Source: Pontimonas sp. (lineage in GTDB: Bacteria > Actinomycetota > Actinomycetes > Actinomycetales > Microbacteriaceae). Taken from it: DNA of 36,421 nucleotides. The notes under the pieces were generated by a model that did not search any database, was not told where the DNA came from, and worked only from the letters and a program-made list of their open reading frames with translations. Position numbers and translations under genes: made by a program. How positions within the stretch are numbered: the stretch's first letter is position 1; every line of letters starts with the position of its first letter. The DNA lies in NCBI GenBank assembly GCA_017857245.1, contig JAFMDO010000010.1, positions 1 to 36,421 of the forward strand. The letters are read 5' to 3'. Positions 1 to 1,519 of the stretch are shown here, piece after piece.

Positions 1-1162
1 CATCCTCCAGGATGGAAACCATGGCAATCTCTGGCGAAGTGATGTGCATAAGATAGCGGGCCATAAGGTGCCAGTGCGCGACCCCACACTTTTCGACGTA
101 TTCTTCGTGATAAGACTCCTGGCGCGCGTCTACCTCTGAGCAGAAACCACCAGCCTCCATCATCTTCACGTAGCTCAGAAATTCATCTTCAAACCACCCG
201 CAACACGAACCGGCAATCGCACTCTTTAACTTAAATTTTGGCGACGGCCACACATCATCGCTCGCGACAATCTCGTCATAACTCAGGCCATTATCTTTGG
301 TCACCTCAAACTCGTCGAAATAATCACGCAGAATCCAGCCTGGGGTAAGTTGCGCAGTCCCCTCGATCCACCAGGTGGGACCGAACCCGTCGGGGGGAAC
401 CGGAGCCCCTGGACCATTCCCACCGGCGCCCTCCTTGCCGAGAAGGTGGGCCCTTTGAACATGATGATGGTATTCGTGAATTAGCCCGGTAAGCATAAGG
501 TACTTTGTTCCCACCAAACCATAAAATTCCAGATTGTCGGAATTGGATATTGCCAGGCGGTCATTGCAGAATGAATAAGCGTCACGAACAGGGTTCGGCC
601 CACCGCTAAAGCCCCCGAGACAACCAGCCCGTTCATTTACAAGAGCAAAAGCTGGAGTAGCGCCATAATCAAAGTTATGTTCGAAATAGCCTAATTCGTC
701 TAGGCCGTTCACAAGTGCCTGATTAGTGGCATTTCCGTCATCTTCATAAGCTGCGTGAACCCAACGGTCGTAGCCGCCGAGATTATCGATCAGAATCTCC
801 GTCATGCTCATGACATCGCCTCGCCACTCAGAAGTGATGCTGTCTCCAAAAAAAACGTGAAACTCGGGTTTCCTCTGGGGTATGTTCCTTTCCGCTTTCG
901 CCAGCCACAGACCGTTTTCGAGAAAGTCTTGTGGCAAATCGCCGGCTTCAACCGGACAATGTCGATATCTGTAGTTCGCTTCTGGAATCAAGGATTCGAC
1001 CGGCTGCGCTTCGCATGGCGGGAGCGATTCCAGCGGTTTTTCAGAAGGTGTGGTCGGCGCGTCAGAGGACTCCGTGCCAATCGCGGGCGAGGAAGAATCA
1101 CTAGAACAGCTAGCTAGCACGAGGTTTAAGGCGATAGCAACAGCCCCAATTCTTGACCCCAC
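1..1162 (-). CDS. Putative secreted zinc metallopeptidase-like lipoprotein (partial, C-terminus outside window)
   Basis: An uninterrupted minus-strand frame of 387 codons runs off the left edge. It starts at a GTG (1162-1160); an in-frame stop lies four codons upstream. The N-terminus is a short lipoprotein signal: a hydrophobic stretch ending in the lipobox L16-A17-S18-C19, followed by a Ser/Pro/Thr/Glu-rich linker, so the protein should be anchored outside the membrane. A zinc-protease motif HEYHH is at residues 229-233, and 34 residues later comes W-W-I-E267-G-T-A-Q. This HExxH...E(G) arrangement is typical of gluzincin metallopeptidases, where the two His and the later Glu bind zinc and the first Glu is catalytic. 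Several Cys residues (for example a CC pair after the motif) suggest disulfides. I do not recognise the exact family; the peptidase role is inferred from motifs. Composition appears more AT-rich than the neighbouring core genes. No good Shine-Dalgarno is visible, so the exact start is uncertain. Confidence 0.72.
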   Translation of the reverse strand, partial: MGSRIGAVAIALNLVLASCSSDSSSPAIGTESSDAPTTPSEKPLESLPPCEAQPVESLIPEANYRYRHCPVEAGDLPQDFLENGLWLAKAERNIPQRKPEFHVFFGDSITSEWRGDVMSMTEILIDNLGGYDRWVHAAYEDDGNATNQALVNGLDELGYFEHNFDYGATPAFALVNERAGCLGGFSGGPNPVRDAYSFCNDRLAISNSDNLEFYGLVGTKYLMLTGLIHEYHHHVQRAHLLGKEGAGGNGPGAPVPPDGFGPTWWIEGTAQLTPGWILRDYFDEFEVTKDNGLSYDEIVASDDVWPSPKFKLKSAIAGSCCGWFEDEFLSYVKMMEAGGFCSEVDARQESYHEEYVEKCGVAHWHLMARYLMHITSPEIAMVSILED

Positions 1163-1347: not shown

Positions 1348-1423
1348 TGGTGGAGCCTAGGAGAATCGAACTCCTGACCTCCTGCTTGCAAAGCAGGCGC
1401 TCTACCAATTGAGCTAAGGCCCC
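1348..1423 (-). tRNA. tRNA-Ala (anticodon TGC), CCA encoded
   Basis: The minus strand folds as a complete cloverleaf: acceptor GGGGCCU paired with AGGCUCC including the G3-U70 pair that identifies tRNA-Ala, a D arm with AGCUCAAUUGGUAGAGC, an anticodon stem-loop CUGCUUUGCAAGCAG with TGC, and a T arm with GUUCGAUUC. The 3' CCA is encoded at 1348-1350. It follows tRNA-Ile in the same direction, as found downstream of gyrA in other actinobacteria. Confidence 0.97.
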
Positions 1424-1445
1424 TCAGGGATTTTATTTAGTTGTG

Positions 1446-1519
1446 TGGGGCTACCAGGACTTGAACCTGGGACCTCTTCGTTATCAGCGAAGCGCTCTAA
1501 CCACCTGAGCTATAGCCCC
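1446..1519 (-). tRNA. tRNA-Ile (anticodon GAT)
   Basis: The minus strand gives a full cloverleaf: acceptor GGGGCUA paired with UAGCCCC, D arm, anticodon stem-loop UUCGCUGAUAACGAA with GAT, and a T arm with GUUCAAGUC. The discriminator base is A and CCA is not encoded (the next bases are CAC). It lies 46 bases after the DUF3566 gene and probably shares a transcript with tRNA-Ala. Confidence 0.97.

Follow-up and report, generated by a model that had tools for sequence, protein, structure and literature searches.

What kind of protein is the putative lipoprotein with a peptidase-like zinc site that is encoded beside gyrA, and what might it do at the cell surface? The window, i.e., the whole stretch of 36,421 nucleotides analysed here, is contig C62 of a 77-contig, 1.28-Mb draft genome, and the putative surface lipoprotein metallopeptidase gene occupies its first bases (2..1162, minus strand) as a 387-codon reading frame that begins with GTG and is still open at the contig end.

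The complete gene and its position after tRNA-Ala

The leftward extension that the initial annotation had asked for was possible because C62 begins with 55 bases that also form, without a mismatch, the end of another contig of this genome, C50, and base 1 of the window proved not to be the end of the gene. The frame runs past it into C50, where 64 more residues and a stop codon follow, so that 387 of the 451 codons of the joined gene lie in the window. We infer this join from the assembly overlap, and it appears strongly backed because an ortholog (L005 5995-7350, in a contig titled Aquiluna sp. BS301-5m-G2) is exactly 451 amino acids long and its C-terminus matches the C50 part, with 84% identity over the final 82 residues. 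The ortholog is likewise located directly after gyrB, gyrA, a small membrane gene, tRNA-Ile and tRNA-Ala, and shares with the joined protein the lipobox, HEYHH, WWxEG and nine cysteines in the same order. The window protein and the ortholog are 68% identical, and the gene is intact, real and under purifying selection, because dN is about 0.20 versus a dS of about 0.79 (dN/dS about 0.25).

The tRNA-Ala(TGC) gene (1348..1423, minus strand) closes the conserved stretch, and the lipoprotein gene occupies the variable position that follows. The order of gyrA, small membrane gene, tRNA-Ile and tRNA-Ala recurs in the 11 other contigs of this genus that were examined, at least two of which stop at the tRNAs or no more than a few hundred bases away. 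In some genomes tRNA-Ala is followed by an EamA-like transporter gene or by other genes, and in genome G011 by a different member of the HExxH group (L088 986-2086). The position after tRNA-Ile/tRNA-Ala (window 1348-1519) is variable between genomes. The early remark that such a protease does not belong to the conserved layout of the origin was supported, as gyrA to tRNA-Ala is conserved and a different gene usually follows. In the neighbouring 10 kb of C50, no repeat of 14 to 30 bases from the 3' end of tRNA-Ala was found that would point to integration, and none of the genes neighbouring the lipoprotein gene indicates a substrate.

A predicted zinc site conserved in a divergent lipoprotein family

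Sequence inspection placed the motifs where they had first been claimed. The signal peptide and lipobox comprise residues 1-19 (1106..1162, minus strand) and end in LVLASC with a predicted lipidated Cys19, which agrees with the bacterial lipoprotein pattern [LVI][ASTVI][GAS]C and is kept in the ortholog, as judged by inspection. HEYHH at residues 229-233 (464..478, minus strand) would provide the zinc ligands H229 and H233 and the catalytic base E230; it aligns with HEYTH of collagenase ColH. WWIEGTA at residues 264-270 (353..373, minus strand; WWIEGTAQ in the first reading) holds the predicted third zinc ligand E267, and A270 corresponds in position to the "hydrophobic basement" alanine. When the protein was shuffled at constant composition, HExxH arose in 3.3% of the shuffles and HExxH followed by EGxA in only about 0.1%, so the pair is unlikely to be present by chance. 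For this putative site, retention of the motifs in the 68% identical ortholog and in all 23 aligned relatives is more decisive than the shuffle odds.

The statement that the protein resembles no named family was also supported, as neither the window protein nor the ortholog reached the cut-off of any Pfam or NCBIfam model. Single-sequence searches of Pfam, NCBIfam and PDB with the window protein gave nothing significant, and no solved or curated peptidase was matched. Whole-genome searches first found two weak relatives, and profiles then added many more, including a paralog in the same genome (contig C12). These relatives form a many-membered, divergent set that spans two small-genome genera belonging to the same bacterial family; they are exported, most with a visible lipobox. 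Pairwise identities are often 15-30%; significant BLAST matches tie the set together, and many of these matches cover the greater part of the domain. In both genera there are genomes that showed no relative. In the sampled wider family, order and phylum there were scattered weak matches only, and the HExxH lipoprotein group is therefore concentrated in the small-genome relatives as far as sampled. Early profile matches in other Actinomycetota were dropped, being mostly to the signal-peptide end of the profile, which was afterwards trimmed to the domain. A mobile-element origin was unsupported, with no relative among the viral contigs, phages and plasmids searched.

In the alignment of 23 members, the only invariant columns are the H, E and H of HExxH and the P, W, E and G of PxWxxEG; the next-best columns include a Gln after HExxH and the Ala after EG, the latter in more than 90% of the relatives. 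The predicted catalytic residues are the conserved core of the family. In genome G267 (L095 6520-15661, G267:C3), a cluster of about 9 kb encodes five adjacent HExxH proteins of several subfamilies, lipoproteins or otherwise exported, with a response-regulator/histidine-kinase pair on either side. A common N-terminal exported domain (SVYQKTLATFS...ICTGIRYY...RAKAACEYAK) is joined to different HExxH domains in L095 13039-14331, L063 and L052, which suggests domain shuffling among these relatives. Apparently broken family copies, with a lost C-terminus or a frame break, were also observed (L008 979-1803; G003:C2 18126-19278, L076 and L080).

An AlphaFold model built from 4 sequences had a pLDDT of 34 and was not usable. 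The model of the ortholog's domain built from 23 sequences reached a moderate pLDDT of 66 and a pTM of 0.74; in it, alternating strands and helices precede the HExxH helix (142-167), and the glutamate of EG lies in the next helix (185-202). Strands and helices, then the HExxH helix and then the glutamate helix are the usual order of gluzincins. Foldseek comparison of the 23-sequence model with PDB and viral structures gave no significant match.

Relation to known gluzincin peptidases

The 23-member profile matched, among solved structures, the peptidase domains of ColH, ColT and ColG, with E values from 7e-6 (ColH) to 3e-4, as well as the M61-like aminopeptidase 4fgm (E 6e-4) and the M1 aminopeptidase 4wz9 (E 8e-3). 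Fifteen of the 23 members matched NCBIfam flagellinolysin NF033876 (best E 5e-7), and flagellinolysin is an M9-like zinc protease of proven activity, which is abolished when the glutamate of HExxH is changed (PMC5595980). The contribution of the motif itself was examined with a profile rebuilt without the window protein and its ortholog, with Z set to 100,000. The joined window protein matched this relatives-only profile with E 8e-16, and with the whole HExxH-to-EG stretch masked the match still reached E 4e-8 via the C-terminal part, whereas ortholog controls whose flanks had been shuffled around an intact motif reached only E 2e-4 to 5e-3. Judged by these profile comparisons, the lipoprotein family is homologous to known gluzincin peptidases. 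Members of clan MA of the gluzincin type (MA(E)) are recognised, among other features, by HExxH with a downstream Glu as third zinc ligand, conserved across homologs and invariant here in the 23 relatives, and by homology to proven gluzincins, given here by the family profile match to ColH and the motif-masked link. The initial proposal of a lipoprotein with a gluzincin-type site is thus supported by strict conservation and by profile matches to solved gluzincins.

The nearest solved structures by profile, the clostridial collagenases ColH, ColG and ColT (MEROPS M9B), share with the window protein HEYxH, a downstream W..EG.A and the gluzincin ligand pattern. Unlike them, the window protein is predicted to be a single small lipid-anchored domain; Pfam found no activator and no collagen-binding or PKD accessory domains in the 451 residues, and the gap from H to E (233 to 267) is longer than in the M9B collagenases. 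Against the Peptidase_M9 Pfam cut-off of 26 bits, the window protein and the ortholog gave no match and the relatives reached at most 18.8 bits. Flagellinolysin (NF033876; PMC5595980) likewise displays a collagenase-like HExxH...EG.A domain on the cell exterior, but the window protein is not inserted in a flagellin, has no flagellin parts and carries a predicted lipobox anchor, and its match to this model (E 0.096, 12.1 bits) is far below the cut-off of 205. The M61 glycyl aminopeptidases and Peptidase_MA_2 (PF05299, PF13485) are alike in the gluzincin HExxH and glutamate helix, and some relatives match these models weakly, while the window protein and the ortholog are unmatched. The uncharacterised HExxH proteins of DUF5700 and DUF6782, putative zinc peptidases in Pfam, are matched by relatives weakly and below cut-off. 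By sequence criteria, then, the window protein is of a known kind, the clan MA gluzincins with M9-like enzymes as the nearest, but falls outside every named family tried.

Proposed function and its meaning

We consider it probable that the gene encodes an exported, lipid-anchored gluzincin (MA(E)) zinc metallopeptidase that cuts polypeptides outside the cell. The lipobox would anchor the protein at the outer face of the membrane, and a single catalytic domain of about residues 95-430 would hold zinc via H229, H233 and E267, with E230 activating water. Such an enzyme would cleave extracellular polypeptides, most likely supplying peptides to a small-genome heterotroph. Zinc binding, protease activity and surface location are what we infer for this lipoprotein, and nutrient scavenging is our guess at its role.

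Other readings of the same observations have to be weighed. That the zinc site is a chance motif in an unrelated lipoprotein is barely credible: the window sequence alone matches nothing and Foldseek was negative, but the low odds of the motif pair speak against it, and the survival of the homology after motif masking largely refutes it. It is also improbable, though less so, that the gluzincin fold was kept as a non-catalytic binding lipoprotein. The downstream region that might supply a transition-state residue does align poorly between the window protein and its relatives; the complete HExxH and E in every aligned relative (n = 23) and the purifying selection argue for an enzyme instead.

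A more serious, still doubtful alternative retains both fold and zinc site for a non-nutritional task, in which a specialised processing or interaction enzyme would act on the cell's own surface proteins or on proteins of a grazer, phage or competitor. Subfamily divergence and clustering would then reflect an arms race or substrate sorting, and many subfamilies at such low identity within two genera, several members adjacent to one another in a single genome and enclosed by two regulator/kinase pairs, a gene that comes and goes at the gyrA site and the existence of broken copies are consistent with it. However, degradative enzymes fit the same pattern, no immunity, toxin or secretion partner was seen, and the copies in the window's own genome adjoin ordinary housekeeping genes. 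We retain the surface peptidase for external polypeptides as the preferred reading.

The usual description of aquatic actinobacteria with small genomes is that they use small, dissolved substrates. As a tentative wider view, which is possible rather than likely, these surface gluzincin lipoproteins may be a lineage-expanded, fast-diverging group in aquatic Microbacteriaceae with small genomes. Members would be exchanged at sites such as that after tRNA-Ala at gyrA, and each would be adapted to its own external protein, which would give the strains of a genus different proteolytic or interaction repertoires. The window protein deserves attention as a member of a diverse, uncatalogued and strain-variable group, and the family marks a gap in the Pfam and NCBIfam coverage of collagenase-related gluzincins. 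If the wider view is true, varied, strain-variable and uncatalogued surface peptidases would be an overlooked route to protein for these bacteria, and their variability among strains may be a possible basis of niche differences.
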